64,000 nt of DNA from Prevotella communis. Its GTDB lineage: Bacteria; Bacteroidota; Bacteroidia; Bacteroidales; Bacteroidaceae. The DNA lies in contig NZ_CP091792.1 in assembly GCF_022024115.1 (NCBI RefSeq), positions 2,108,001 through 2,172,000 on the forward strand, in the 5' to 3' direction. Positions 9,085-38,674 of the stretch are shown piece by piece. The notes under the pieces are model-generated. The model had not been told where the DNA came from. It saw only the letters and a program-made list of their open reading frames with translations, and ran no database searches. Numbering within the stretch: the first letter of the stretch is position 1; each line of letters opens with the position of its first letter. The position numbers and the translations under genes were made by a program.

Positions 9085-9217
9085 TTGCGGAGAGTGAGGC
9101 TCCTTTTTGCGGAAGGTGAGGGATAATCTCACGAGTGCTCTTCTACGCTGATAATCAGTCGCTTATCTCCGACTAAGGGTTCAACCTATTATTGGGGTGT
9201 AAAACATTTGTAAAACA
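9085..9217. other. Host-phage junction, candidate attachment-site scar
   Basis: No gene is seen. Two direct repeats, TGCGGAGAGTGAGG at about 9086 and TGCGGAAGGTGAGG at about 9108, resemble the reverse complement of a tRNA-Ser acceptor end. The second is followed on the minus strand by a 5-bp stem, 7-base loop like a T-arm (GTGAG/CTCAC). Host genes end just to the left and phage genes begin just to the right. This is the expected place for attL, but the matching right end is outside the window. Confidence 0.3.
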
Positions 9218-9619
9218 CTATTTCACGCGTTCATAGTTATATTGGAACGGATGACCATCGACTCTCTCGAAAGTAAAATGGTCTGCATCCTCTTCATGTA
9301 CGCTATACGAGCCTTCTCCGTCTATATATAGAGAGCAATACTCGTACTCGTAGTAGTTACCGTGACCGCCCATCATTTCGCCAACGCTCTTTCTGACTGA
9401 AAGCGAATACGGAACAGAATCGTTCATCATGCCGTCAGAGGAAAACTTGATAGTCTTTCCCCAGACACCATAATGCTCTTCACTCGTCTGCCATGTGCCG
9501 ACGAGTATCTGCTTGAAGTGAGCAAGGTCTATCTTGTTCACCACATCGTCGTTGCCGTCATCGTCACCACATCCGACGAAGGCAAAAGCCATCAAAGCAA
9601 AGATTAGCCATTTCCTCAT
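9218..9619 (-). CDS. Phage lipoprotein co-transcribed with the CI repressor
   Basis: A 133-residue protein with a lipoprotein signal peptide: hydrophobic residues 4-16 ending in FVGC, then an acidic Asp-rich linker. The mature domain (GTWQTSEEHYGVWGKTIKFSSDG) looks like a small lipocalin-type beta barrel, though this is a visual impression. It starts 1 base after the repressor stop codon, so it should be expressed in the lysogen. That position is typical of lysogenic-conversion or superinfection-exclusion genes. No family was recognised and the function is inferred only from context. Confidence 0.7.
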   Translation of the reverse strand: MRKWLIFALMAFAFVGCGDDDGNDDVVNKIDLAHFKQILVGTWQTSEEHYGVWGKTIKFSSDGMMNDSVPYSLSVRKSVGEMMGGHGNYYEYEYCSLYIDGEGSYSVHEEDADHFTFERVDGHPFQYNYERVK

Positions 9620-9620
9620 A

Positions 9621-10208
9621 TCAAAACACTCTAACTAAACCTACAACCAAACTGACAGAGTAAACATCTTCCCCAGGAACGAAGAACTCAGGGTACTGCT
9701 TATTGTCAGACACACACCGAAATCCATTCTCCCCTTCATACAGTCTCTTGACGACAATTCCCTGCGAGGTGAACAAAACGTGAGGCTTTCCCCATTGAAC
9801 GAAAGCCTTCTCGTTCACTTTCAGGCAAGCTATCTCGTCGCCACTACGAAACTCTGGCTCCATGGAGTCGCCACGAACCATGATCGTGAAGTCATAGCGA
9901 GGCATCTGTGCTATCACAGGCATTGGCTCGCTATATTCTTCTATGGCTTCTGATAATGTACCCGCGCAAGCGTATGTGAGAATACGCGGGCGCGTGTCCT
10001 TTTCAGACACATTCCCGCAGAGCCAGTCGAGACTCACATCAAAAACATCTGCAACCTTCTCGGCGAGAGGCATGACGTTCTTCTTGCCGCTCAGCATCTC
10101 AGAAATCATGGAGTCGCTAAAGCCTACCATCTTGGCAAGCCCCTTCTGATTCAGATTCCTGCTGGTGAGCAAGGCTTTTATGTTCTTTGAAACCTCGTCT
10201 TTGTTCAT
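9621..10208 (-). CDS. LexA/CI-like prophage repressor (HTH plus S24 autoprotease)
   Basis: A 195-residue repressor. Residues 5-65 form an XRE helix-turn-helix (QKGLAKMVGFSDSMISEMLSG). Residues about 78-195 form an S24 peptidase domain: cleavage site Ala82-Gly83 in YACAGTL, catalytic Ser115 in RGDSMEPEF and Lys154 in IVVKRL. Spacing agrees with LexA, so RecA-stimulated self-cleavage after DNA damage, and hence inducibility, is expected. It is transcribed away from the early operon. A TATCTTTG promoter box lies at 10354-10361 on the minus strand, among GCGAAT-type half-sites that suggest autoregulation. Confidence 0.92.
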   Translation of the reverse strand: MNKDEVSKNIKALLTSRNLNQKGLAKMVGFSDSMISEMLSGKKNVMPLAEKVADVFDVSLDWLCGNVSEKDTRPRILTYACAGTLSEAIEEYSEPMPVIAQMPRYDFTIMVRGDSMEPEFRSGDEIACLKVNEKAFVQWGKPHVLFTSQGIVVKRLYEGENGFRCVSDNKQYPEFFVPGEDVYSVSLVVGLVRVF

Positions 10209-10462
10209 AGGAATATGTTTAATTGTGTCACTTTTTTCAAAAGTTTGTTATTATTTCGCAGATATTTCTCGATTAGCGAATTATAATTCTTATTTTTGCA
10301 AATGGTTTCGCAAACGAACTCGTAACGGATGCGTCCGCAATCAATCTTGGGTGCAAAGATACGCATTTATCACCATTCGTATGCATATTCCTGCGAATAA
10401 TACGCGAATAATAACAAAATTTGGCAATAAAACGTGAATAATTAACAAATAAATACAAAACG
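10209..10462. promoter_or_regulatory. Lysogeny switch: operators and divergent promoters
   Basis: The region separates the repressor (minus) from the early operon (plus). On the minus strand TATCTTTG lies at 10354-10361. On the plus strand TATTTTTG lies at 10291-10298 and a weaker AAAATTTG near 10417. Copies of the half-site GCGAAT or its complement occur at about 10254 (TTTCGC), 10275 (GCGAATTAT), 10376 (ATTCGT), 10393 (GCGAATAAT) and 10404 (GCGAATAAT). They flank and overlap the promoter boxes, as expected for repressor operators. No long gene is supported in this interval. Confidence 0.6.
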
Positions 10463-10660
10463 ATGAAAGCAAAAAGAAAACCCATCATCCAAGTGCCGCA
10501 CGGCAATGTAGATAAAATCTGCAAGGCCGTCCGATGCAGACGTACCGCCGTTTACGATGCGCTGGCCTTCAAGACCAACTCAGAACTGGCCAACCTCATT
10601 CGCCAGACTGCCATCAGTACATACGGTGGCGTGAAGACTACGAAGCTCATCATGTCATAA
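10463..10660 (+). CDS. Small helix-turn-helix regulator, Cro-like candidate
   Basis: A 65-residue basic protein, the first gene of the early operon and divergent from the CI gene. The segment DKICKAVRCRRTAVYDALAF reads as a helix-turn-helix, followed by SELANLIRQTAISTYGG. Position, size and charge suit a Cro-type anti-repressor or early regulator. The same layout, a short HTH gene opposite CI, is common in Bacteroidales prophages, but no named family was recognised. Confidence 0.6.
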   Translation: MKAKRKPIIQVPHGNVDKICKAVRCRRTAVYDALAFKTNSELANLIRQTAISTYGGVKTTKLIMS

Positions 10661-10661
10661 C

Positions 10662-10754
10662 ATGGCTCTCGTCACTCTCCTGACTGTCTGCATAGCAGGA
10701 ACAGTCTATCTCAGAAAAGAAATCAGTTACCTGTCTCAAAATTTATGGAAATAG
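10662..10754 (+). CDS. 30-residue membrane peptide
   Basis: The frame starts 1 base after the previous stop codon and overlaps the next gene by 10 bases. The peptide has a hydrophobic N-terminal half (LVTLLTVCIAGTVYL) and a short charged tail. Tight packing in the operon supports translation, but the length makes it uncertain. Confidence 0.4.
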   Translation: MALVTLLTVCIAGTVYLRKEISYLSQNLWK

Positions 10755-11011
10755 AACTCTCACCAAAGTCAATCAGCCTGCTTGCCGACGCTCTCGCTCC
10801 ACGTGTCGCCGTCATCATCATGCAGAAGATGAACGAAGACCCGATGAAGGAAGAGTGGGTTGACACAAGAACAGCAGCAAGGATTCTCGGTATCAAGCCC
10901 AATACATTGCGTAAGAATATCGACAAGTACACTCACGTCAAGTCCGGCGACAAAAGGCAGGGACATTTGCTCTTCCTACGCTCCGAACTCATAAACGCTT
11001 TCGCAAAATGA
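10745..11011 (+). CDS. Helix-turn-helix domain protein (excisionase/HTH_17-like)
   Basis: An 88-residue protein. The N-terminal half is a hydrophobic helix. The C-terminal half (WVDTRTAARILGIKPNTLRKNI, then GHLLFLRSELINAF) matches the MerR/excisionase-like HTH_17 pattern, in which a winged helix reads DNA. In phages such proteins act as excisionases or early regulators. No integrase is nearby to favour the excisionase reading. It overlaps the next small gene by the ATGA arrangement. Confidence 0.65.
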   Translation: MEIELSPKSISLLADALAPRVAVIIMQKMNEDPMKEEWVDTRTAARILGIKPNTLRKNIDKYTHVKSGDKRQGHLLFLRSELINAFAK

Positions 11012-11133
11012 TACTACCAGACCCATTCGCAGGATGGACGAAACGAGAGAAGAGAGACTTCTGGTTCTCACTCTTCTTCACCGTCATCGGCTGCATAGCA
11101 TTATTCACAATTCTAATTATCACCGCCCCATGA
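11008..11133 (+). CDS. 41-residue single-pass membrane protein
   Basis: The start overlaps the stop of the upstream HTH gene (ATGA) and the stop overlaps the next start. The first 18 residues are charged (KREKRD) and residues 19-40 are strongly hydrophobic, so it should be an N-in membrane protein. Chained overlaps on both sides make real translation likely. Function unknown. Confidence 0.5.
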   Translation: MILPDPFAGWTKREKRDFWFSLFFTVIGCIALFTILIITAP

Positions 11134-11351
11134 GCAAAGCAAAAGCACTTGAACGGATGAAGAAAAGCAGTCCGTCAACCTACAACAAAGTAAAGGCACT
11201 GATCGAACAGCATGAGTGCCTGTGGAACCTACCCTTCGACAAGTTCCAAGAGCTGTGCGGAAAGACACTCCGACAGCTGGTTAAGGAAGGACACTGCAAG
11301 AAGCCGTTGTCCGAAGATGTTCTCAGGGCCAAACACGTACTGGCCATCTAA
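11130..11351 (+). CDS. Hypothetical early protein
   Basis: A 73-residue basic, mostly helical protein starting at the ATGA overlap at 11130. An upstream in-frame start at 11034 would lie inside the membrane-peptide gene. No motif was recognised. After its TAA stop the same frame stays open to 11564, including the candidate gene at 11430, so a past single gene split by a stop is possible. Confidence 0.5.
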   Translation: MSKAKALERMKKSSPSTYNKVKALIEQHECLWNLPFDKFQELCGKTLRQLVKEGHCKKPLSEDVLRAKHVLAI

Positions 11352-11429
11352 CGGCTCTTCGCCGTCGCTGCTCCTGCAGCACATTCGCTCTTTGACTTAT
11401 TGATACAACAAAGGAAGGATGAAACGCTT

Positions 11430-11564
11430 ATGCGGTTCGGTATGTCCGAAGTGGATTCACGTTCTGATTACTTACTCTTTGTGGCTACGACTCTTAGGCC
11501 AGCACATGACAAAACAGAACGCCACGACTTGGGTTGCGCCAAGCGCCGCAACACGGATGGTTAG
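11430..11564 (+). CDS. Possible small gene overlapping tRNA-Trp
   Basis: A 44-residue frame whose sequence (SEVDSRSDYLLFVATTLRPAHD) looks protein-like. It is in the same frame as the gene ending at 11351. Its end overlaps the first 11 bases of the tRNA. It could be a remnant of a longer gene. A competing frame at 11419 runs through the whole tRNA and was rejected. Confidence 0.3.
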   Translation: MRFGMSEVDSRSDYLLFVATTLRPAHDKTERHDLGCAKRRNTDG

Positions 11565-11628
11565 TTCAGCAGGTAGAACGTCGGTCTCCAAAACCGAATG
11601 TCGGGGGTTCGAGTCCTCCACCATCTGC
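11554..11628 (+). tRNA. tRNA-Trp (anticodon CCA)
   Basis: A cloverleaf can be drawn by hand. Acceptor CGGATGG pairs with CCATCTG (one G-T pair), D-stem GTTC/GAAC, anticodon stem TCGGT/ACCGA with loop CTCCAAA, and T-stem GGGGG/CCTCC with loop TTCGAGT. The anticodon is CCA. The 3' CCA is not encoded. It lies inside the early operon and probably supplements the host tRNA pool. Confidence 0.88.
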
Positions 11629-11693
11629 AAGATTCGCAAAGAACTCATAAATGATACCTATGGCTCTGGCGAGAGCCGAAAAACCTAAACCCA

Positions 11694-11726
11694 CCCTTTC
11701 CTCTCGTGAGAGCCGGAAGGGTTTTT
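11694..11726 (+). terminator. Stem-loop terminator after tRNA-Trp
   Basis: CCCTTTCC pairs with GGAAGGG with one bulged T, the loop contains the self-pairing CTCTCGTGAGAG, and TTTTT follows. The loop motif CTCGTGAGAGCCG recurs in the terminator at 63104. It should end or weaken transcription before the FISUMP gene. No promoter was recognised for that gene. Confidence 0.6.
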
Positions 11727-11771
11727 AATAAACGACAATTCACCCTATTTATTCACATAAAATCATTCAGC

Positions 11772-12536
11772 ATGAAAGATTCAACAAACATCAAGATGCA
11801 GCTCCTTGATAAATATGGGGATGCAAGTTGCATGGAGTCTGTGGACTTCTGCCGTGCGGCCTATCGGTTCATTACCGAAGAAGATGATGCCGCAACACCT
11901 TCTACAGAACAGCATGACATCGTTTCTGCTCCAGCCCACGTGCAGGCTATTGATCTTGGCCTGCCGTCAGGAACTCTCTGGGCCGATCGTAACGTAGGTG
12001 CCAAGTCACCCGAAGATTACGGAGCATTCTTCTCTTGGGGAAACACAGAACCTCTCTATCCTGTAAACAGCGGAAATGACTGGGGTGACGATGATGATGT
12101 TTTCGCCGAGGAATGTGCTTTCACCGAAGACAACTACAAGAAGACTGAGGGTTACAAACTGAAAGGCGATATCGACATCTCTCACGACGCTGCACGTATA
12201 AACATGGGAGAACCTTGGTTGATGCCTACATCAGAGCAGTTCCAGGAACTCTACGATAACTGCACTTGGATTCGCAAGACGATCAACGGAATGAACGGCT
12301 ACTTGGTAACGTCGAAAATCAACGGCAACTCCATCTTCTTCGCGTGTGCGGGATATTGTTATGGTGCGTCGCTCTACCTTCGCGGATCGTACGGCTACTA
12401 CTGGTCGTCCACGTACTACTCTGCCACGAATGCGCGCTACTTGAGCTTCAGTAGTTCGAGTGTCAGTCCTCAGAGCTACAGCAGTCGGCGCTACGGCTTC
12501 TCTGTGCGGGCTGTTCAGAAGTTGCCTAAGAAGTAA
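11772..12536 (+). CDS. FISUMP-domain protein, remote DGR target 1
   Basis: A 254-residue protein. Residues 1-55 are charged and helical with no signal peptide. A FISUMP domain (Fibrobacter succinogenes major paralogous domain) fills the rest: AIDLGLPSGTLWADRNVG, then FSWGNTEPL, PWLMPTSEQFQELYDNC, and the ending GFSVRAVQ. The last about 65 residues are DGR variable repeat 1 (12361-12518), so the binding face is expected to be hypervariable. It is 24 kb from the reverse transcriptase and on the other strand, among early genes, with no tail-type N-terminus. What the diversified protein binds is unknown. Confidence 0.85.
   Translation: MKDSTNIKMQLLDKYGDASCMESVDFCRAAYRFITEEDDAATPSTEQHDIVSAPAHVQAIDLGLPSGTLWADRNVGAKSPEDYGAFFSWGNTEPLYPVNSGNDWGDDDDVFAEECAFTEDNYKKTEGYKLKGDIDISHDAARINMGEPWLMPTSEQFQELYDNCTWIRKTINGMNGYLVTSKINGNSIFFACAGYCYGASLYLRGSYGYYWSSTYYSATNARYLSFSSSSVSPQSYSSRRYGFSVRAVQKLPKK
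12361..12518 (+). repeat. DGR variable repeat VR1
   Basis: These 158 bases align without gaps to the template repeat at 36627-36784 (opposite strand). Seventeen substitutions are seen and all fall where the template coding strand has A: mostly AAC to TAC or AGC, AAT to AGT, one AAT to CTT and one ACG to GCG. The last 24 bases (GGCTTC to GTTCAG) are identical to the template and act as the IMH-like anchor. Confidence 0.93.
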
Positions 12537-12554
12537 TCACACATTCTTTCACGC

Positions 12555-12594
12555 CCATGCCGATTACCGCCATCCACAAGAGGGCGCGGCATGG
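12555..12594 (+). repeat. Hairpin downstream of VR1
   Basis: CCATGCCG at 12555-12562 pairs perfectly with CGGCATGG at 12587-12594; inside, CGCC can pair with GGCG around CACAAG. It begins 36 bases past VR1. A 42-base relative with the identical outer stem follows VR2 at 37635-37676. Hairpins after the variable repeat aid target recognition in the Bordetella phage BPP-1 DGR, so a similar role is inferred. Confidence 0.75.
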
Positions 12595-12615
12595 TCGGAA
12601 AGAATGTCATCCAAC

Positions 12616-12692
12616 CGTGGCAGAAAGTCCGTAAAATGGTGCGACGGATAAGTAAGTTTGGCCTGAGCGAGGTTCGAGTCCTCCTGCCACGA
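12616..12692 (+). other. tRNA-like element, degenerate
   Basis: A perfect 7-bp acceptor stem (CGTGGCA/TGCCACG), a T-loop TTCGAGT and an encoded CCA (12693-12695) are present. The D-arm is weak and no 5-bp anticodon stem forms: the best attempt has a mismatch and an 8-base loop. No anticodon can be assigned. It may be a decayed tRNA gene or a structural mimic. Confidence 0.45.
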
Positions 12693-12712
12693 CCAACAAA
12701 TCTTTTAAGAAT

Positions 12713-12832
12713 ATGAACTACAAGGAACAAAAAGCAGAATGGTTGCGCAAGCATCCGAAAGCAACAGCAGAAGAAGCCTACGAGGCAGGTTATCAACAGT
12801 CAACGGACAACTGGTGCCGACGTGAACGATGA
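12713..12832 (+). CDS. 39-residue hypothetical protein
   Basis: The frame starts at 12713 and ends in an ATGA overlap with the next gene. The peptide is charged and helical (YKEQKAEWLRKHPKATAEEA). The tight junction to the following gene supports translation. No family was recognised. Confidence 0.45.
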   Translation: MNYKEQKAEWLRKHPKATAEEAYEAGYQQSTDNWCRRER

Positions 12833-13038
12833 CGGCTCTCGACATTCTCTTCAACCTGCGTCAGCAACGACGCGACGCGCACATCCAACCTGACTTCGTT
12901 CCAGAAAATACACTGTTCAGAGCGCTTGATGGTTCTGCCGTCGAGAACCCAAAGCAGCAACTCAACGAGGCGTTCCGGCAAGGAAAGATTCGTCTTCACA
13001 GAACCGTCAACGGACGCTCCGTAGAACTCATTGACTGA
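12829..13038 (+). CDS. Hypothetical protein
   Basis: A 69-residue basic protein that overlaps the preceding small gene by 4 bases. The middle (GSAVENPKQQLNEAFRQGKIRL) suggests a small helical regulatory or DNA-associated protein, but no motif supports that firmly. It is the last small gene before the clamp gene. Confidence 0.5.
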   Translation: MTALDILFNLRQQRRDAHIQPDFVPENTLFRALDGSAVENPKQQLNEAFRQGKIRLHRTVNGRSVELID

Positions 13039-13230
13039 ATTTCCCAATCAATCTTTATACGATTAATAAGGAGTAAAGCCTCTCGCGACGAGCCGTATTA
13101 CTCAGATATATTTATTTGTGAAATTCATAAACCAGTGGATGCCACCTGTGAAGGCCGCATCCATTTCTCCAAGCAGTCTCTCGCTCAGCGGCTCTTCCGC
13201 TGAGTACACATAACCCCAAAACACAAGATT
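13039..13230. other. Leader of the clamp gene with stacked hairpins
   Basis: No gene is seen in these 192 bases. Hairpins occur at about 13071-13098 (GAGTAA/TTACTC around CTCTCGCGACGAG), 13136-13162 (TGGATGC/GCATCCA) and 13184-13204 (CTCAGCGG/CCGCTGAG). The last ends 26 bases before the clamp start codon. They could pause transcription or set translation of the replication block. Confidence 0.4.
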
Positions 13231-14634
13231 ATGAAGCAAAAGAAAAAGAAATTCTCGTCAGCCGAGAAGATGCTGCCGCTACTTCAGCAGCTACAACAGA
13301 CCTACGCCAACAGGTGTGACTCCTTTTGGATTCACACAAGAGCAGAAAGCGGACGTTTCTGGATAGACGTTTCCGTAAACACTGATGGACTCGCCTTTGC
13401 CGACTTTAGCTTCTACCAGTTCGACAAGGCAGAGACACTTGAACGTAAGTACAACCGACTCTGTGATTATCTCAAACAAGTTTATTTTCTAATTCATTCG
13501 CTTATGAAATTCGTAGTTTCAAAGAAAGCACTCGAAGAGGACATCAAAGCCCTCTCGAAAGTCATCAACAAGAAGAACGCGCTGCCCATCCTCTCGGACT
13601 TCGTGCTCGAAGTAAAGAACACCACGCTTATCATCATGGCTTCCGATGGTGAAATCTGTGTGCAGACACAGGTGCAGCTCTCTGAGAATGAAGGTGGCGA
13701 CGGTATCTTCTGCCTGCCACAAGAGGACATCACCAACGCCCTCAAACAACTCTCTGAACAGCCCATCACCATCGAGGCATCGCTGGAACTGGGCAACTGT
13801 ACGGTCACTCATTCCTCTGGCTCCTTCTCGTTCATCTGCGAGTCTTCCGACGAGTACCCGAAGCCTCACTTCCCATCGCCTGAGTCCACGGCCATCAACA
13901 TCGACACCGAACAGGTGAAGAAAGCCATCGCCCGCTCTCTCTTCGCAGTAGCTCACGACGAGTTGCGACCAGTAATGAACGGCATCCACTTCAACTTCAC
14001 CAAGGACTATACCGACGTGGTGGCATCCGACGGTCACCGACTCATTCGCAACCGCGAGTATGGAGTCATCGTTGACCATCCCGCCTCGTTCATCATGCCT
14101 GCCAAGGCTGCAAAGTTCATCAACACCGCTCTTGGCAAAGATGGTGGTCAGGTGACGTTCCAGTTCGATGACAACAACTGTGTGGCCACCTTCGACTCTA
14201 CAACGGTCAACTTCCGACTCATTGAGGGCCGCTATCCTAACTACGATAGCGTTATTCCAAAGAAGACCAACCACGACGCAGTGGTTGACCGCCTCTCATT
14301 GATCAACGGCCTGCAGCGCGTCAGCCCCTTCGCCAACGAGTCAAGCAATCTCATTAAGTTCACCTTCAATGACAATGTGCTCACACTCGACGCTGAGGAC
14401 TTCGACTTCTCACGCACGGCAACAAACCGTGTCGCCTGCGACTTCTCTGACAAGCAGCTCGCCATCGGATTCAAGGGTGCCAGTGCCATCGAGATTCTTA
14501 AGAACCTCACGGCTCCCGAGGTCATCTTTAAGATTGTTGACCCCTCTCACGGCTGCATCATCATCCCCAACGACGATGACATCACCGAAGAGGAAATCAC
14601 CGCTCTGCTCATGCCAATGCTTATCAACGACTAA
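13231..14634 (+). CDS. dnaN: DNA polymerase III beta-type sliding clamp with N-terminal extension
   Basis: A 467-residue frame. Residues 92-467 match the bacterial beta clamp, beginning MKFVVSKKALEED like a canonical DnaN, with three repeated clamp domains (for example ASDGHRLIRNREY and LIEGRYPNYDSVIP). Residues 1-91 are an extra basic, tryptophan-containing part (CDSFWIHTRAESGRFWIDVSV) joined without a stop. Translation could begin at 13231 or at 13504; the latter would give a 376-residue clamp of normal size. The clamp tethers polymerase to DNA. A phage-borne copy suggests control of replisome loading. The first 91 residues may be a separate domain fused by stop loss. Confidence 0.88.
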   Translation: MKQKKKKFSSAEKMLPLLQQLQQTYANRCDSFWIHTRAESGRFWIDVSVNTDGLAFADFSFYQFDKAETLERKYNRLCDYLKQVYFLIHSLMKFVVSKKALEEDIKALSKVINKKNALPILSDFVLEVKNTTLIIMASDGEICVQTQVQLSENEGGDGIFCLPQEDITNALKQLSEQPITIEASLELGNCTVTHSSGSFSFICESSDEYPKPHFPSPESTAINIDTEQVKKAIARSLFAVAHDELRPVMNGIHFNFTKDYTDVVASDGHRLIRNREYGVIVDHPASFIMPAKAAKFINTALGKDGGQVTFQFDDNNCVATFDSTTVNFRLIEGRYPNYDSVIPKKTNHDAVVDRLSLINGLQRVSPFANESSNLIKFTFNDNVLTLDAEDFDFSRTATNRVACDFSDKQLAIGFKGASAIEILKNLTAPEVIFKIVDPSHGCIIIPNDDDITEEEITALLMPMLIND

Positions 14635-14638
14635 GCCC

Positions 14639-14911
14639 ATGAACGAGCAGAAGACAACAGTACCCTGTGCATCAGCGCAGGGTTTCCATCACCCTCCTGG
14701 CTCTTTCAAAGAGCATCGCCAGTATTACTACCGTCGTCATGGCCGTTACTTCGAGATTATGAAGTCCGACCCGCCATCACCTAATGGTGTAATGACAGCA
14801 TCACCGCTCTATCCCAATGAGCGCTATCTCTCTCAGCAGGAAGCCAGTCGCCGAGTGTATGAACTCAACGGCTGGCCTCAGAAACAAGAAAGCAAACCAA
14901 TCCATCTTTAG
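14639..14911 (+). CDS. Hypothetical protein with a hairpin repeat in its 5' coding end
   Basis: A 90-residue basic protein starting 4 bases after the clamp stop. Codons 8-15 coincide with a family-A hairpin (stem CCCTGTGC/GCGCAGGG at 14663-14682), so the early residues TVPCASAQGF come from the repeat. The body (YYYRRHGRYFEIM, then QEASRRVYELNGW) looks genuine. No function is recognised. The hairpin could limit ribosome entry. Confidence 0.55.
   Translation: MNEQKTTVPCASAQGFHHPPGSFKEHRQYYYRRHGRYFEIMKSDPPSPNGVMTASPLYPNERYLSQQEASRRVYELNGWPQKQESKPIHL
14663..14682. repeat. Family-A hairpin inside the 14639 gene
   Basis: CCCTGTGC/GCGCAGGG (one G-T pair) with loop ATCA and left flank CAGTA. It begins 22 bases after the start codon of the host gene and is read through in frame. 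Confidence 0.65.
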
Positions 14912-14916
14912 TTTTT

Positions 14917-15798
14917 ATGACAAACATCTTAGAACAGCTCAAAACCATCGAGCACAACAAGATTCCTGACCTCGCTCGTGACAAGTTCATCGAGGTTTAC
15001 ACTCAGAAGTATGGCGCTCAGAACGCCGAGGCCTTCTTCGAGGAACAGCGTGGGTTCTTCCTCGCAGAAATGACATCAGGCTCTTACAAGAACCTGCTGG
15101 CCGCTGCCACTGGAACAAGTATTTACTTCGCATTCCTCTTCCTCGCCATCAACAACCTCTCGCTCGAAAAGGGTCTCTCTACGACCTGCTACCTCGAATG
15201 TCGCTCACAGAAGATTGGTGAGAAGCCTGATCCAAACGGTGGCCGTCCGCAAGCAGTCTATGAGCGCTCTGCCGTCATCACCGTCACAGGCTATGGCGAA
15301 ATCCTGCTCCGTCAGCGAGCCAAGCAGATTCGTTCTGTTGACAATCCGAAAGTGGTCTATGACTGCGACACCTTCCGCTATGGGGAGGACAACGGACAGT
15401 CTTACGTCAAGTACGAGAAGGCCATCCCTCGCCCACAGGGAGCGCGTATCATCGCCTGCTATGTCCGCATCGTCAAGGCCGACGGTACCGTTGACTACTT
15501 CGTGCTCGACACCGACGAAATGCTGCGCTTGAAGCAGTATTCTGGCAAGTCGAACTTCGGAAAGCCTAACGCGCTCTACGGCCAGTCTGCCGACTGCTCC
15601 GATATCGACACTGGATTCTTGAAGTCAAAGACGGTAAAACATGCCTTCAAGGGCTACCCCAAACTCTCTATCGGAACAGGTGGCGCTATGGAGTCCGACA
15701 AGGACGAAGAACCTACACCGGCTCCCGCTGCCACTACCGCCGCTCCTGCCGCACAGGGCGTTCAGGTAGATGCTCCAGAAGACACTCCATTCAATTAA
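14917..15798 (+). CDS. RecT-family single-strand annealing protein
   Basis: A 293-residue protein. Residues about 20-230 fit the RecT/Redbeta-like fold used in phages: KGLSTTCYLECRSQ, VTGYGEILLRQRAKQIRSV and VYDCDTFRYGEDNG. It should anneal complementary single strands during recombination-dependent replication, paired with the nuclease at 17509. The C-terminus is an Ala/Pro linker ending in EDTPFN, which resembles the acidic tip by which SSB recruits partners. It lies in a block recT, coiled-coil protein, small protein, nuclease. Confidence 0.8.
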   Translation: MTNILEQLKTIEHNKIPDLARDKFIEVYTQKYGAQNAEAFFEEQRGFFLAEMTSGSYKNLLAAATGTSIYFAFLFLAINNLSLEKGLSTTCYLECRSQKIGEKPDPNGGRPQAVYERSAVITVTGYGEILLRQRAKQIRSVDNPKVVYDCDTFRYGEDNGQSYVKYEKAIPRPQGARIIACYVRIVKADGTVDYFVLDTDEMLRLKQYSGKSNFGKPNALYGQSADCSDIDTGFLKSKTVKHAFKGYPKLSIGTGGAMESDKDEEPTPAPAATTAAPAAQGVQVDAPEDTPFN

Positions 15799-15811
15799 AC
15801 CAGTAATCATC

Positions 15812-17104
15812 ATGGACGATAACAGACAACTCGCAGTCATCACACAGCAGACTGCCGAAATCACAAAGAGTGTCGCTTCTATCAAGACCGACATCACCAA
15901 TGCTGCAACCGACAACAACAAGTCGCTGCAGGCCTGCCTCTCAGCAGGCGACCTCCTGCTCTCGCGCTCGTCGGAAATGAACGACGAACTGGACGCAGAG
16001 ATTGCTTCCTTCATCAAGAAGGCCAAGGCTACGGCCAAGGCAATGAAAGACCGCCGTTCTACCGTCACACAGGTCTTTGACCTCGTGAAGAAAGGCTTCA
16101 CCACCATGGAGAACTTCCTCGATGCCAAGTCTGAGGAATCCATTATCTACAAGCTACAGAAGAAACGCGACGAGTACGCCGCTTTCAAACTGGAACAGCA
16201 GCGTAAGGCCGAAGAGGAACGTCAGCGGCTCGCCCGCATCGAAGCAGCCAAGACTCAGCTACGCGAGGATGTCATCACGGTCTGCAACCAGATTGTCAAC
16301 GAGAAGACTTCCGAAGCACTCGACCGTCTCTCTGAGAAGTTCCGTCTGATGACGCTCGACAATGCGGAACAAATAAAGAAGGAAATATCTGAATATCCTA
16401 CAGAAATCAAGATTGCATCCTTCCTTGCCGACCGCAAGCCGTCGTTCTCGCCTGAGATTCCTGCAGAAGAGGCGCGAAACATCATGAACGCGGCCTATAA
16501 GGAGGTGAACGAATCGCTCACCAAATCCTACGCCGACTCGGTGGCTTCTACCAAACAGGACCTGCTCGACACCTTCGACTCAAAGGTTTCTGAACTACAG
16601 GAACAGAAGCGTCTCGAAGACGAGCGACGCAAGGCCGAAGAGGAAGCGAAGAAAGCTGCCGACGAGAAAGCCAAGGCCGAGGCTGAGGCTCGCGCCAAGG
16701 CTGCTGAGGAAGAGCGTAAGAAGCGCGAAGAGGAACTGAAAGCGGCTGAGGCACAGGCTGAGAAAGAACGTCTGGAGAAAGCCGAGGCCGAGCGTAAGCA
16801 GCGCGAGGAAGAAGATCGCATCCGTAAGGCGCAGTCGCAGACGCAGACGCTCTTCGACCAGGCTCCCGCCATCGCCGCTCCTGTCAAGGCGAAGGTCTCT
16901 CACCATATTGAGATAGATGATCCTACTGGCTTCCTCGCCATCATTCAGATGTGGTGGACGCACGAAGGCTCGAAGATGTCACTCGAAGACCTCAACAAGA
17001 AACTGGGCTTCATGGTCAAGACTTGCGAGAAGGTGAAGAACAAAGAGGACATCACCGTCATCGACCCTGCCGTCCGCTATGTCGAGGACATCGTGGCAAA
17101 ATAG
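15812..17104 (+). CDS. Long coiled-coil protein of the recombination block
   Basis: A 430-residue protein. Residues about 110-160 and 255-350 are charged heptad-rich helices (AEEEAKKAADEKAKAEAEAR-type), with a globular C-terminus (ITVIDPAVRYVEDI). No ATPase motif is seen, so it is not an SMC or SbcC protein. Placed between recT and the RecE-like nuclease, it may act as a scaffold or DNA-associated partner; that is inference from position. A family-A hairpin follows its stop at 17123. Confidence 0.6.
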   Translation: MDDNRQLAVITQQTAEITKSVASIKTDITNAATDNNKSLQACLSAGDLLLSRSSEMNDELDAEIASFIKKAKATAKAMKDRRSTVTQVFDLVKKGFTTMENFLDAKSEESIIYKLQKKRDEYAAFKLEQQRKAEEERQRLARIEAAKTQLREDVITVCNQIVNEKTSEALDRLSEKFRLMTLDNAEQIKKEISEYPTEIKIASFLADRKPSFSPEIPAEEARNIMNAAYKEVNESLTKSYADSVASTKQDLLDTFDSKVSELQEQKRLEDERRKAEEEAKKAADEKAKAEAEARAKAAEEERKKREEELKAAEAQAEKERLEKAEAERKQREEEDRIRKAQSQTQTLFDQAPAIAAPVKAKVSHHIEIDDPTGFLAIIQMWWTHEGSKMSLEDLNKKLGFMVKTCEKVKNKEDITVIDPAVRYVEDIVAK

Positions 17105-17122
17105 TCTCTCTTGGGAAGTGTG

Positions 17123-17144
17123 CAGCGTGGTTTTTGCCACGCTG
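17123..17144. repeat. Family-A hairpin after the coiled-coil gene
   Basis: CAGCGTGG/CCACGCTG with loop TTTTTG; left flank GTGTG, 18 bases past the stop codon. Confidence 0.6.
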
Positions 17145-17184
17145 TCCTCCCCACTATTTGTCTAACCCCTTAAAAGAATAGTGT

Positions 17185-17460
17185 ATGAACAAGTACAAGA
17201 CTGTCATCGTCGTTCAGCCTGTATCATGGACTGGCGACAAAGTGAACAAGTATCAGGCTACTGCCACCGTCTCTAATCATGCTAACGAGGTTGTCAAGCG
17301 CATCCAAGGCGACCCCAAGCCCAACGAGGCGCTGGCCAAGCAGTCGCTTCTCGAAGAGTTGCGCATCTGGCGTGACGTTGCCATCGAAGCCTATGCCGAT
17401 GTGAGCGACATCCTCACCGAAGAGGCAAAGGCCGAAGCAGCCATCAAGGAAAGTAAGTAG
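17185..17460 (+). CDS. Hypothetical protein between recombination genes
   Basis: A 91-residue protein with a beta-strand-like start (KYKTVIVVQPVSW) and a helical acidic second half. No family was recognised. It is followed within 9 bases of its stop by a family-A hairpin (17469-17488). Confidence 0.5.
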   Translation: MNKYKTVIVVQPVSWTGDKVNKYQATATVSNHANEVVKRIQGDPKPNEALAKQSLLEELRIWRDVAIEAYADVSDILTEEAKAEAAIKESK

Positions 17461-17468
17461 TCACAGTG

Positions 17469-17488
17469 CCCTGCGGTTCTCCGCAGGG
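17469..17488. repeat. Family-A hairpin, clearest plus-strand copy
   Basis: CCCTGCGG/CCGCAGGG with loop TTCT and left flank CACAGTG. It lies 8 bases past one stop codon and 20 before the next start codon. Members of this family also occur at 14663, 17123, 26438, 29142, 34731, 36028, 38723, 45674, 46244, 53075, 54151, 57478, 58123, 59117, 60788, 63033 and 63846. Confidence 0.7.
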
Positions 17489-17508
17489 TTCCCATAACTC
17501 CCATCAGC

Positions 17509-18180
17509 ATGAATCACGACCCTTACTACTCTCGCTCAGAGGTCTCTAACTCCGACCTCACAGCCCTGCGCAACAAGCTACACCCTGCCCTCGACTTCGT
17601 GAAGCCTGCGGCACGTGCCAAGGCGTTCCACCTCGGTACGCTCGTCGATGGTCTCGTCACAGAGCCTAAGAACTGCAATCACTACAGGCTCACCGTTGGC
17701 GACGAGAAATATACGTCCGACGAATGGAAGTGGGGCAAGCAGCAGCTCGAAAAACTGAGAAAGGCGGCAACGAAAGATGCTTTTCTCGACTACGTGCTGA
17801 AAAATGCCGTCGGCCAGCAGGTCTTCGTCAACCCCTCTCAGCACTTCGACCTCGGTTGCTACTCCTTCGACCTGCCTACGCGCTGTAAGTTCGACTGGCA
17901 TCTGGGCCTCTTCGGTGGCGACCTGAAAACATGCAGCGCAACGACACAGGATGCTTTTGAACAGAGCATCGACTTCTTCGATTGGGACAGAAGCCGTGCG
18001 TTCTATATGGACCTCACGCACTCTCTCAATCCTTCTCTGGGCAATCAGGACTTCATCTACGCTGTCTCAAAGACGGCAAACAAAGTCTTCTTCAAGAAGA
18101 TTGTACGTGGCGACGAACTCTACGAGCGTGGCCGACAGAAGTACCTCGAACTGGCCTTCCAATATTGGCTCTTCACTTAG
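17509..18180 (+). CDS. RecE-like PD-(D/E)xK exonuclease
   Basis: A 223-residue protein. The N-terminal motif AFHLGTLVDGLVTEP is typical of RecE/exodeoxyribonuclease VIII relatives, and the catalytic D-x-K appears in FGGDLKTCSA near residue 145, with an aromatic C-terminal part. It should resect double-stranded DNA ends to give single strands for the RecT protein, acting in the cytoplasm during replication or repair. It is shorter than E. coli RecE and contains only the nuclease domain. Confidence 0.72.
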   Translation: MNHDPYYSRSEVSNSDLTALRNKLHPALDFVKPAARAKAFHLGTLVDGLVTEPKNCNHYRLTVGDEKYTSDEWKWGKQQLEKLRKAATKDAFLDYVLKNAVGQQVFVNPSQHFDLGCYSFDLPTRCKFDWHLGLFGGDLKTCSATTQDAFEQSIDFFDWDRSRAFYMDLTHSLNPSLGNQDFIYAVSKTANKVFFKKIVRGDELYERGRQKYLELAFQYWLFT

Positions 18181-18265
18181 AGCCATCGTTTCCATAGTCT
18201 TCGGGCAGGGCGCCACCCTGCCTACTAACAACCGTTTTTATTCACCCATTTTAATAACAAGCATT

Positions 18266-18661
18266 ATGAAAAAGACTCATTCAAACAAGAAGAGAAGTTC
18301 TTTCATTTCGGCCATCCGTGCCAGTAAGTATCGCAATGTCCGTCTCAACGGAGCAAAGCCTGTCTTCACCAAGAGCTACACAGACAAGCGAGTGGCGCAC
18401 TCCGCTCATGGCTTCAGCGGCATCCGCGACGAAGAGGCCGTTCAGACGCTCACGGTCAATCTCGTAAAGTACCTGCAGAAGAAGGTCGAGAACTTCAACC
18501 CGAAGAAGCAGCGCATCGCCATCGAGAACCCGACACTCACAGGCTTCGTGCTCTCCTTCTTCACTGGCGGCAAGCGTCACGAGAAGTACATCTGCTTCAA
18601 GACCATGCCCAACCGTGCGGTCTATCGTCGTTGTAACCAATTCGTGCAGGCTTATGCCTAA
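18266..18661 (+). CDS. Hypothetical basic protein
   Basis: A 131-residue lysine- and arginine-rich protein (MKKTHSNKKRSS, then RIAIENPTLTGFVLSFFTGGKRHEKYI). The ATG at 18266 was chosen; an upstream frame overlaps the nuclease gene. The stop overlaps the helicase start by 8 bases, so expression is probably coupled. It may bind nucleic acid, judging only by charge. Confidence 0.5.
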   Translation: MKKTHSNKKRSSFISAIRASKYRNVRLNGAKPVFTKSYTDKRVAHSAHGFSGIRDEEAVQTLTVNLVKYLQKKVENFNPKKQRIAIENPTLTGFVLSFFTGGKRHEKYICFKTMPNRAVYRRCNQFVQAYA

Positions 18662-35337: not shown

Positions 35338-36546
35338 CTATGCTGCATCAGCGATACAGCCTCTTTCTATCTTGTAGAATTTCGTCATCGTCGTATCAAA
35401 GCCACCAGCCCGAAGAACATCTTCTCTCAGGAAGGTGGCACAGCGTATCTTGTAACTGTCATAATGAACCATCATGCCAAGGAAGGAGTTAATGCTTCTC
35501 CACACCTTCTCGGTATCGCTCATATCGAGATTGTTCAGACTGGTAAGCGTCCTGTGAAGGGTGTCGTTACTGATGTACGTTCTCCAAGGCTTCACAAAGG
35601 CACCAAGGAACTCCACACCGTATTTTACATCGGCAAGAATCAGCTTGCCTCTGTGCAAGTCAAGTCCAAGTTCTTCTTTCAGGAACTTCTCTATCTCAGG
35701 AACAATACTCAGCAGCCATGCCTTATCACGACTCACAACGTAGGCATCATCGACATAGCGGCCATAGTGTCTGCACTTCAACACGCGCTTCATGAACTGG
35801 TCAAAGGCATTCATATACACATTTGAGAACAGCTGACTCGTCAGATTGCCGATAGGCAGTCCACAACCTTCTGCAGTCCAGAACAGGCTCTTGTTCTTGT
35901 CAAGACCATCCCAATCGCTCTTGTCGCCCACGATCCTGCAATGGGTCTTTGGGTCAAGCATGATAATCTGACTGGTAAGCCACTTGATGAAGTCCATATC
36001 AATGACATCCTGCCACCGTTCAGTGTGCCCTGCGATTTTGTCGCAGGGTCTTAACGCCATCTTATCCAATGTCTCAATGGCAATAGCCAGCAGCTTCTTT
36101 CTGTTGATATGCATAAAGTAGCCCCTGATGTCGAGTTTCATCACATAGCACTTCTCTTGCCAGTTCCGGCTCTCTTGTCTGATATGCTGCTTCATGCGCT
36201 CAATGCCGTAGTGTGTGCCACGGCCAGGAATACAACTGTAGGTGTCCTGAATGAAGGTGCGCTCAAACAGTCTGTTGGTATAGTTATAGTAAAGATGATG
36301 CACAATTCTGTCACGGAACTGAGCAGCGAAGACCTCACGCTTCTTGGGGCGTTCTATGATAAAACACGAAGAGGGTTCTGGCACATACTGATGACTCAGC
36401 AATGCGTCGGCAAGCGCTTCGAGATTCTTGTCAAGGTCTCTCTCGAAAGTGCGCACGTATGCCTTACTCGTCTTACCCTTCTTCGCACATGCAAAGGCGA
36501 CGTGTAAGTCAAGTATCAAAGCCTTTCTTGTCAGTCTATATGCCAT
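35338..36546 (-). CDS. DGR reverse transcriptase
   Basis: A 402-residue group-II-intron-related reverse transcriptase. KLDIRGYF (residues 137-144) is the first catalytic Asp motif, GLPIGNLTSQ (229-238) is the DGR-specific IGxxxSQ form of motif 4, and YVDD (264-267) is the active site. It would copy the template RNA with errors at adenines to replace variable repeats. The codons for residues 166-174 contain a family-A hairpin (36028-36048), an in-frame insertion in a surface part. The template repeat lies 80 bases upstream on the same strand. Confidence 0.96.
   Translation of the reverse strand: MAYRLTRKALILDLHVAFACAKKGKTSKAYVRTFERDLDKNLEALADALLSHQYVPEPSSCFIIERPKKREVFAAQFRDRIVHHLYYNYTNRLFERTFIQDTYSCIPGRGTHYGIERMKQHIRQESRNWQEKCYVMKLDIRGYFMHINRKKLLAIAIETLDKMALRPCDKIAGHTERWQDVIDMDFIKWLTSQIIMLDPKTHCRIVGDKSDWDGLDKNKSLFWTAEGCGLPIGNLTSQLFSNVYMNAFDQFMKRVLKCRHYGRYVDDAYVVSRDKAWLLSIVPEIEKFLKEELGLDLHRGKLILADVKYGVEFLGAFVKPWRTYISNDTLHRTLTSLNNLDMSDTEKVWRSINSFLGMMVHYDSYKIRCATFLREDVLRAGGFDTTMTKFYKIERGCIADAA
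36028..36048. repeat. Family-A hairpin inside the RT gene
   Basis: CCCTGCGA/TCGCAGGG with loop TTTTG, left flank GTGTG, within codons for RT residues about 166-174. It keeps the reading frame open. Confidence 0.65.
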
Positions 36547-36626: not shown

Positions 36627-36809
36627 CTGAACAGCCCGCACAGAGAAGCCGTTGCGCCGATTGTTGTTGTTCTGAGGATTGACATTCGAACTATTGAAGT
36701 TCAAGTTGCGCGCATTCGTGGCAGAGTTGTACGTGGACGACCAGTAGTTGCCGTTCGATCCGCGATTGTTGAGCGACGTACCATCGTAGTTGCCAGCCGC
36801 AGGAAAGAA
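36627..36809 (-). repeat. DGR template repeat (TR)
   Basis: The 183-base template is read on the minus strand from 36809 to 36627. It holds 17 AAC/AAT codons when read in the frame of the targets, an adenine-rich composition typical of templates. It matches VR2 over the whole length and VR1 over 158 bases. It is flanked by 36547-36626 and 36810-37017, in which no gene is recognised. An open frame through it is a copy of the target C-terminus and is not taken as a gene. Confidence 0.93.
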
Positions 36810-37017: not shown

Positions 37018-37581
37018 TTATAGCAATGCCGCTATCTGTTGTTTCATCCTACTGATAAACTCGATATTCTGAGCAGGGGTGCTCGCCTCAACAGGGTACG
37101 ACAGAATCTGTGACGCAATGTGAAACAGTCCTGAACGTCCAAGGTTCGCACTCTGGCTATTGCCATTCGTAATATCTTTCTGACCTTTGGCCTTCTTAGG
37201 CTATGCAACAGGCAACGACTCGCGCCAAGCAGCGTAAGCAGCTTCCATGTCAGCCACATCACTCGAAGCATCGGCTTCGGGAAGTTCAACCTCCACAATC
37301 AGGTCATCACCTTCAATCGTCTGAACGCTCTTGTACGAAGGTATGTACTTACTCAACGACTGCAAAGGAAAGCCGTACATCACATACTCCTTATCCTTGC
37401 CAGTGTATCGCTGTACCTTCGGTGTGGGAGCGCCCTCACCAACGCAACAGACGGTGCAGACAAGCCACGCACTCCAGTCATAGACATGATAGAAGCTACC
37501 GTCTTTGTTAAGCAGAATCTTGTTCTTGCTCTCTTCGTCGCTGCGCATCTTTTCATATTCAATCGCTGCAACCAGTTTCAT
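37018..37581 (-). pseudogene. DGR-associated accessory ORF interrupted by TAG
   Basis: The reading frame begins at 37581 and runs 126 codons to a TAG at 37201-37203. It then continues in the same frame for 60 codons to a TAA at 37018. Both parts look like coding sequence: the first has YHVYDWSAWLVCTVCCV and acidic VEVELPEA; the second has SGLFHIASQILSYPVEA and NIEFISRMKQQIAALL. The full 187-residue product would lie between the target gene and the template, where DGRs often have an accessory gene. Either the gene was recently inactivated, or the stop is read through. The 126-residue part alone could also be functional. Confidence 0.6.
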
Positions 37582-37634: not shown

Positions 37635-37676
37635 CCATGCCGCGCCGCCCTTGTGGGTCGGCGGTAATCGGCATGG
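37635..37676 (-). repeat. Hairpin downstream of VR2
   Basis: On the minus strand CCATGCCG and CGGCATGG close a 42-base hairpin, with an inner CCC/GGG stem on loop ACAA. It starts 29 bases past VR2 and has the same outer stem and ATTACCGCC arm as the hairpin after VR1. It is absent after the template, which fits a target-marking role. Confidence 0.78.
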
Positions 37677-37702: not shown

Positions 37703-38674
37703 CTACTGAACAGCCCGCACAGAGAAGCCGAGGCGCCGATAGCTGTAGTTCTGAGGAAGGACATTCGAACTATAGAAGAGCAAGAGGCGCGCATTCGTGG
37801 CAGAGTAGTACGTGGACGACCAGTAGAGGCCGTACGATCCGCGATCGTAGAGCGACGCACCATCGTAGAGGCCAGCCGCAGGAAAGAACAGCGTGTTACC
37901 ATTCACATTCGAGGTAAAAAGCCGACCAGCGACACCATTCATCGTAGTCCATACGCAGGTACAGTTGTCATACAACTCCTGGAACTCAGAAGCAGTAGGC
38001 AAACGCCAAGGCTGACCAAGGTTAGCACGAGCCATGTCCTGACTCAGCGACAGGTTGGCGCTAATAGAGGCGGCAGGTGTGGTGTCATACACGGCCTGAG
38101 AGAAGTCGTAGCCGCTTCCTTCTGCATGACCTTCTGGATTGCCCCAAGAGAAATACAGGCCGTAGCCTTCTGGAGTGGCTGCACCGATGTTACAACGCGC
38201 CCACTTCAAACCGCTGGGCAGGCCCATATCAACCATATCCTCGAAATCGTTGGCCAACTTCTCTCGACTGATGATATTCCAGTTCGTACCGTCATACTGC
38301 ATCATGGCAACGGTTCCACTGGTGATGACACCTGCTTCCAGGGCGGCACCATGCAGGAAGATAGGCTTTGCGCCTGTGCTGCTGACATTCAGCGTAGCAC
38401 CGTCAACGCTAACGTCTAAGTTGAAGAACACGCTTACGATAGCATTTTTCAGCAACACGAAATTGCTGATGCTAACGGTCTTAGCTGCTGTGGCAGCAGC
38501 GGTAGAGCAAACGCCATAGCCCATGCCAAGGCGCGCACCGTCGGCAATAGCGGCAGTGATAGCCTGAACGCTCATACGCCGGATGCTTCCACCAACTTCA
38601 ACCAAAATCTTGTCATTACTGGTAAGGGAGCCGCTGGCGGCAGGAGCCTCACCCAAATTCTTCATTTCTGGCAT
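37703..38674 (-). CDS. Tail protein with FISUMP domain, DGR target 2
   Basis: A 323-residue protein. Residues 1-140 are a phage tail-type N-terminus (KNLGEAPAASGSLTSNDKILVEVGGS). Residues about 150-323 are a FISUMP domain (DMGLPSGLKWARCNIG, FSWGNPEG, PWRLPTASEFQELYDNC), ending GFSVRAVQ. The last 61 codons are VR2. The variable face should determine which host ligand the tail tip binds. It is followed by the accessory ORF, template and reverse transcriptase in the classical order. Confidence 0.92.
   Translation of the reverse strand: MPEMKNLGEAPAASGSLTSNDKILVEVGGSIRRMSVQAITAAIADGARLGMGYGVCSTAAATAAKTVSISNFVLLKNAIVSVFFNLDVSVDGATLNVSSTGAKPIFLHGAALEAGVITSGTVAMMQYDGTNWNIISREKLANDFEDMVDMGLPSGLKWARCNIGAATPEGYGLYFSWGNPEGHAEGSGYDFSQAVYDTTPAASISANLSLSQDMARANLGQPWRLPTASEFQELYDNCTCVWTTMNGVAGRLFTSNVNGNTLFFPAAGLYDGASLYDRGSYGLYWSSTYYSATNARLLLFYSSNVLPQNYSYRRLGFSVRAVQ
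37706..37888 (-). repeat. DGR variable repeat VR2
   Basis: This 183-base repeat aligns without gaps to the template. There are 21 substitutions, every one where the template coding strand has A (AAC to CTC, TAC or AGC; AAT to GAT, TAT or CTT; one ACG to GCG). Non-A positions are all identical. The final 24 bases are unchanged. Confidence 0.95.

Follow-up and report, generated by a model that had tools for sequence, protein, structure and literature searches.

The window, i.e. the whole stretch of 64,000 nucleotides analysed here, is part of a 3.57 Mb single-contig genome and carries a DGR together with two target genes, one in the early block and one on the tail side of a prophage (Table 1). 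The initial annotation had placed the early target between tRNA-Trp and the replication genes and had described it as a remote target, 24 kb away and on the opposite strand. The positions of the tRNA-Trp and of the beta clamp gene bear out this placement, and both the strand and the distance of about 24 kb are correct. The beta clamp carries about 90 extra N-terminal residues in comparison to host-type clamps (the alignments begin at residue 61-92). Just 3' of the target gene, at 12612-12692, a tRNA-like remnant with paired ends and a T-arm-like stretch can be recognised by eye; it was reported by neither ARAGORN nor Rfam.

Table 1. Features of the early region and of the DGR cassette; positions are those of the window.
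Feature	Position	Strand	Remarks
attL core, 13 bases	9087..9099		tRNA-Ser on the far side of the prophage terminates in the identical bases
CI-like repressor	9624..10208	-	phrog_4, E 5e-29
tRNA-Trp	11555..11628	+	upstream of the early target gene
Early DGR target gene	11772..12536	+	254 aa; made up of a helical module, a linker and a C-type-lectin (FISUMP-like) body with VR1 at its end
Constant 33-residue N-terminal module (4-36)	11781..11879	+	two predicted helices; profile match
VR1, variable repeat	12361..12518	+	all 17 differences to TR fall on template adenines
Invariant 3' end of VR1	12506..12518	+	common to TR and VR2; IMH-like, named by analogy to BPP-1
Hairpin downstream of VR1	12541..12607	+	10 bp outer stem; DNA fold with z -5.22
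Phage DNA polymerase III beta clamp	13231..14634	+	first recognised replication gene downstream of the target gene
DGR reverse transcriptase (RT)	35338..36546	-	402 aa; RVT_1 E 2e-13; phrog_1423 E 3e-86
TR, template repeat	36627..36809	-	VR1-matching part 36627-36784
Small ORF between TR and VR2	37201..37581	-	126 aa; also present in L045 and L050; may be an accessory protein
Hairpin downstream of VR2	37635..37676	-	core as at VR1; z -6.17
Second (late, tail-side) DGR target	37703..38674	-	323 aa; carries VR2 at 37706-37888

The prophage

The CI-like repressor and an integrase-like ORF, which shares 35% identity with the integrase annotated in PV4-TP1, mark the phage as temperate. A 97%-identical phage of the same lineage is represented by the IMG/VR contig L022 (15.2 kb), of which 10,598 bases are 97.1% identical to window positions 9087-19677; the rest of the contig corresponds, at 97.6% and 98.2%, to genome sequence outside the window. 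The junction in L022 is a 13-base core at position 4591, which is found at 9087 in the window and also forms the 3' end of the host tRNA-Ser on the far side. L022 therefore carries attP, and the prophage extends over approximately 2117087-2190290 of the genome (73 kb). Matches to PV4-TP1, which was induced from Phocaeicola vulgatus, were found for 21 prophage ORFs, including terminase (55.5%), major head (54.3%) and portal (44.8%). Judged by sequence, the prophage is related to LoVEphage/Quimbyvirus. In the accessible text of the respective papers LoVEphage (PMC8525569) and Quimbyvirus (PMC8008677) are each matched by their authors to the B. dorei prophage CP011531.1, and the two presumably form one group.

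The DGR cassette and its targets

VR1, VR2 and TR are the only repeats of at least 40 bases that the repeat finder gave within the window. As claimed initially, VR1 matches the template over 158 bases with changes exclusively at adenines: the alignment contains 42 template adenines, and all 17 differences fall on them (hypergeometric P 9e-12). The same is true for VR2, where 21 of 21 differences across 183 bases are found at the 45 template adenines. RT and TR belong to the late tail module, where the TR is situated between the RT gene and the small ORF, for which neither a Pfam nor a PHROG match could be identified. The locus combines a DGR-type RT, an RT-proximal TR with target VRs that differ from it at template adenines, and a diversified protein whose variable part is a C-type-lectin-like domain at its end.

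In residues 5-46 the tail-side target shares 45% identity with a LoVEphage protein annotated as a tail protein. The early protein has no tail-type N-terminus, and it contains neither a membrane stretch nor a signal-peptide-like stretch (the highest 15-residue hydropathy near the N-terminus is 0.45), so that the initial annotation was right on the tail N-terminus and on the signal peptide. Its designation as a FISUMP protein stands by way of the homologues, for which, as for the VR2 protein, the assignment is clearer; the protein's own match to Pfam Fib_succ_major is weak (E 0.0017) and under the curated cut-off. The protein database assigns PF26707.1 to the window protein and many homologues, and this family was not returned for the window protein in the Pfam scan, even at E 10.

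Variation of VR1

The contig L022 supplies one second VR1 allele. In comparison to the window, it differs at 23 of the 42 template-A sites and at none of the 116 other sites of the repeat (Fisher P 2e-16). Outside VR1 the two genes differ at 23 of 589 sites upstream and at 0 of 18 behind the repeat. Counted by codons, VR1 contains 13 non-synonymous changes and one synonymous change, and the upstream part 6 and 16, respectively. According to the initial annotation, VR1 would be a fossil if it were unchanged in many isolates in which VR2 varies; on the evidence of this one second allele it is none. The contig L023 of this second phage begins inside the RT, so that the comparison covers VR1.

A comparable pattern is seen in a subfamily of 249 residues (30 homologues out of 136 proteins), in which the columns of residues 1-185 have a mean entropy of 0.07 bits and those of residues 186-249 one of 0.89, the sequences being representatives of 90% clusters, a choice that favours variable ones. 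By our reading, the 19 columns above 1 bit correspond to 16 Asn codons, two Thr codons and one Asp codon in the TR of the phage of L047. From these sequence comparisons VR1 is almost certainly a recently active DGR target.

Far targets in other phages

A locus scan with 17 family members led to 14 loci. An RT 58-61% identical to that of the window was found in five of the nine records searched (L045, L046, L047, L049 and L050). That the early target recurs in these five phage records, each of which has an RT and a template of its own, is apparently new. The early VR differs from the TR at adenines in 22 of 22 positions in L045, 16/17 in L046, 18/20 in L047, 17/19 in L049 and 15/15 in L050; the frame of the early gene of L049 is broken inside its VR. 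The tail-side VR is complete in L046, L047 and L050, is interrupted by an N run in L045 and lies outside the sequence of L049. The family is kept at full length across phages whose proteins are 53-63% identical.

Further far targets could be identified in G449 (22/24 differences at A), G468 (21/21), L122 (13/13), G286 (18/19) and PV4-TP1 (17/17). Including the window, 196 of 204 differences are located at adenines in 11 phages, and in eight of these the far gene and the RT are encoded on opposite strands, the exceptions being L047, G468 and L122. The second DGR target of L122 (1405-2199) has a cysteine-rich, zinc-ribbon-like N-terminus, and its gene sits behind a gene which we read as a SAM synthetase. 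Two more virus records contain far targets with other N-termini (L176, 4529-5062, 21/21 at A; L175, 3241-4032, 22/24 at A). The proteins P0121 and P0125 resemble P0010 in the N-terminal part and linker and differ from it in the lectin body, a pattern that suggests an exchange of body cassettes.

In four of the eight FISUMP-type relatives with the N-terminal module described below (L045, L046, L048, L050), a DNA methyltransferase gene ends 20-32 bases before the far gene. The window has no such counter-defence neighbour; its methyltransferases are located 11-14 kb from the early target gene. A beta clamp is found near the early target in the window, in L051 and L052 and in L054-L056, and no TR was seen in L051, L052 and L054-L056. 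The neighbours in L194 and L195 are, named by eye, DNA polymerase and cytosine methyltransferase genes.

For an estimate of the base rate, an RT alignment gave 110 relatives, of which 80 loci were retained and 79 scanned (L023, whose RT is cut, was omitted). The VR scan extended over 10 kb RT flanks, and many of the records without a VR are short or cut. Sixty of the 79 loci contain one or several A-biased VRs with a length of at least 100 bases, and 19 contain none. In those loci 58 VRs are RT-adjacent and four are far (L050, the L045 and L049 records, and L122). A profile search in 30 of the 80 records, picked by length, revealed extra far lectin copies in two of them (G449 and G468). The low number of far copies among the RT relatives indicates that far second targets occur in a minority, at least in records that are mostly fragments and by searches which other scaffolds would escape.

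The constant N-terminal module

The module profile was derived from 51 distinct N-termini, belonging to proteins of which 50 contain the FISUMP-type GLPSG stretch. AlphaFold2 (47 sequences, mean pLDDT 68) predicts helices at residues 4-15 and 21-36, with a pLDDT of about 80 in residues 11-30, followed by a disordered part (38-52) and the body, in which the variable part 194-235 is unresolved in the model. The profile also matches L054-L056 (E 1.5e-21 to 4.9e-21) and L193-L195 (E 9e-23 to 2e-18), the bodies of which belong to another, Lcl_C-like class. Between the classes the modules are 29-74% and the bodies 19-35% identical, as obtained from forced alignments; for the window protein the corresponding values are 29-49% and 23-35%, i.e. 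its module is hardly better kept than its body. Short stretches near a WSS motif match between the classes (E 2e-5 to 4e-3), and the FISUMP-type and Lcl_C-like scaffolds may therefore be distant relatives.

The module motif is absent from all 58 RT-adjacent targets, of which 53 have an ORF of at least 150 aa, and occurs on three of the four far VRs of the base-rate scan, that of L049 having been missed by the script through the frame break and seen otherwise. Altogether, the module is present on seven of the 11 far targets and absent from those of G449, G468, L122 and LoVEphage; the N-terminus of G449 resembles it by eye only (profile E 0.38). L193 (G286) belongs to another DGR, which has its own TR and an RT 33% identical to that of the window. 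In G286 a VR with 12 of 12 differences at A is part of a 2233-residue ORF, and the early VR is found at a distance of about 13 kb on the opposite strand. L054-L056 are contigs of about 98% identity; in pairwise comparisons the gene, which is 714 bases long, shows 7-8 differences before base 570 and 14-20 from there on.

The module is clear in five of 398 congeneric genomes; two further hits near E 0.01, which span 12-14 positions, appear to be chance matches. At the level of the order, 393 genomes were covered, and the module was found in the window's own alone. Apart from the latter, four congeneric genomes carry the module; in two of them, L192 (G146) and L194 (G406), no RT similar to that of the window (E 1e-20) was detected; their early targets are possibly orphans, are served by another RT, or the genomes are incomplete. 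The literature searched does not mention the N-terminal module, and such proteins may sit unnamed in catalogues such as that of PMC8144416.

Hairpins behind the variable repeats

For each repeat the following 84-105 bases were folded as single-strand DNA, the VRs of L022 and L044 being left out. In the RT clade all 12 VRs have z values of -3.96 to -8.54, and the six TRs lie between -2.13 and +1.87. Outside or at the edge of the clade, G449, G468, L122 and both VRs of G286 reach -3.51 to -5.05, the TR of G286 having -2.33. In PV4-TP1 (LoVEphage) no such hairpin was found at the two VRs (z -0.83 and +0.04) or at the TR (-0.56). When all sets are pooled, a z of -3.5 is reached by 17 of 19 VRs versus 0 of 8 TRs. 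The stems differ in sequence among the phages and their pairing is kept. For BPP-1, the accessible part of PMC3240598 describes a hairpin which is needed for efficient retrohoming and whose stem sequence can vary. The contrast between VRs and TRs could help to locate remote targets. Within the literature searched, the hairpin contrast is apparently new, as are the module and its use by two DGR lineages.

Possible role of the early protein

For the early protein the initial annotation had named three possible roles, i.e. in the lysogen, against the host or as a protein loaded into virions. Tail tropism is the usual explanation of phage DGRs, and an early protein with a conserved body and a mutating head asks for another use, the simplest of which is a mutable intracellular binder. 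We propose, with a probability of roughly 0.6, that one DGR serves two genes and that the early protein is a cytoplasmic adaptor with a varied lectin head. The RT would copy the TR RNA into A-mutagenised cDNA, which would replace VR1 as well as VR2, and the choice of the retrohoming targets may depend on the shared 3' end and the hairpin. The constant N-terminal module would dock to one constant partner, of either phage or host, and the lectin head would be varied in order to bind a likewise variable host factor. Taken by itself, a non-virion, intracellular location of the early protein is probable; it is favoured by the early position and by a module that was not found on RT-adjacent targets. 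A probable co-expression with a methyltransferase gene in four relatives would point to takeover or counter-defence. The most likely purpose would be to counter host defence during takeover; we would give somewhat less than an even chance to a function as counter-defence adaptor.

It is unlikely that the early-made protein ends up in the virion, as a decoration or as an ejected protein, and that VR1 widens the binding to cell surface or mucus as is thought for VR2. Such a role would fit the common template and the same kind of lectin head in both targets (57% identical over residues 59-250) as well as the prevalence of tail proteins among phage DGR targets, which the accessible text of PMC8144416 reports. 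However, the position in the early block in the window and in the relatives, the N-terminus, which is not of a tail type, and the occurrence of the module on 0 of 58 RT-adjacent targets speak against it. Still less probable is a role in the lysogen, where a prophage-expressed protein would block superinfection or mask a receptor before its export. The phage is temperate, the gene is 1.5 kb away from the CI-like repressor, and a stem-loop with a T run before the gene, which looks like a terminator by eye though a scan did not list it, may make it its own unit. But neither a signal peptide nor a membrane stretch is present, and the distance of 20-32 bases to the methyltransferase gene in L045, L046, L048 and L050 suggests a shared transcript of the lytic phase. 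A selfish spread, by which lectin cassette, VR and hairpin were copied into an early gene and mutate there as bystanders without benefit for the phage, is very improbable; the apparent exchange of lectin bodies between P0121/P0125 and P0010 would fit it, but the family is retained at full length at 53-63% identity and few changes are seen outside VR1 (6 non-synonymous and 16 synonymous codons).

Coming back to the cytoplasmic adaptor, it is tempting to extend this reading to a dedicated family of antibody-like early proteins in Bacteroidales phages, with a constant helical handle for a fixed partner and interchangeable hypervariable lectin heads under continued mutation by the retroelement of the phage, which would track and neutralise changing intracellular host factors; the handle would have been acquired by at least two distant DGRs with different scaffolds. 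This extension is tentative, and we consider it somewhat less likely than not. The constant module could serve as bait for finding the partner, which makes the job of the early proteins testable, and the inducible LoVEphage isolates PV4-TP1 and BI-TP1 with their analogous far target offer a laboratory system.

Comparison with known systems

The initial annotation had called such a target unusual, which has to be toned down, because distal second DGR targets near DNA methyltransferases are already published. In the text available, Benler 2021 (PMC8008677) describes a second, distal DGR target near a methyltransferase, and a 2025 Nature paper (PMC12629997) reports on four species of inducible gut prophages which, like the window, carry a second VR at a distance from the RT; this VR is situated near counter-defence genes, e.g. 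a DNA methyltransferase. Together with our check of the LoVEphage records, these reports show that DGRs with a distal second target are an already known kind. The largest DGR survey sought repeats up to 20 kb from the RT according to the accessible text of PMC8144416, and the target at 24 kb in the window would therefore be missed.

Quimbyvirus/LoVEphage (isolate PV4-TP1, PQ571302) has, like the window, one TR, one tail-side VR and a far VR in the early block on the opposite strand. The window shares this layout, i.e. a second VR from the same TR outside the structural module, and works like that kind, to which it belongs by layout only. In six LoVEphage records 22 of 25 template-A columns of the far VR vary, in contrast to 0 of 87 other columns and 20 of 689 outside the VR, two records sharing one VR. 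The far target of PV4-TP1 recurs, 95-99% alike, in each of the five further LoVEphage-type records that were found. The RT of Quimbyvirus is described as frame-split in the available part of PMC8008677, and in PV4-TP1 (L064, 23164-24707) the annotated RT is short and followed by small ORFs, which agrees with that description. Unlike in the window, the far VR of Quimbyvirus/LoVEphage is located inside the gene, no hairpin was found after its VRs, and the far target lacks the module and is not homologous to the window protein (no BLASTP match better than E 0.59).

The DGR of BPP-1 is characterised by A-specific retrohoming, a 3' homology end and a single tail target. The window resembles it in the A-specificity of the changes, in the 3' homology end and in the hairpin downstream of the VR with a variable stem sequence, as far as described in the accessible text of PMC3240598, but its hairpins are longer, mostly two-tiered and also present behind an early gene. 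More than one target per DGR, as in the window, is also reported for Faecalibacterium and tentaclin phages in the available text of PMC11792537 and PMC10743442; there the targets belong to other protein families, and the tentaclins are described as receptor-binding proteins.
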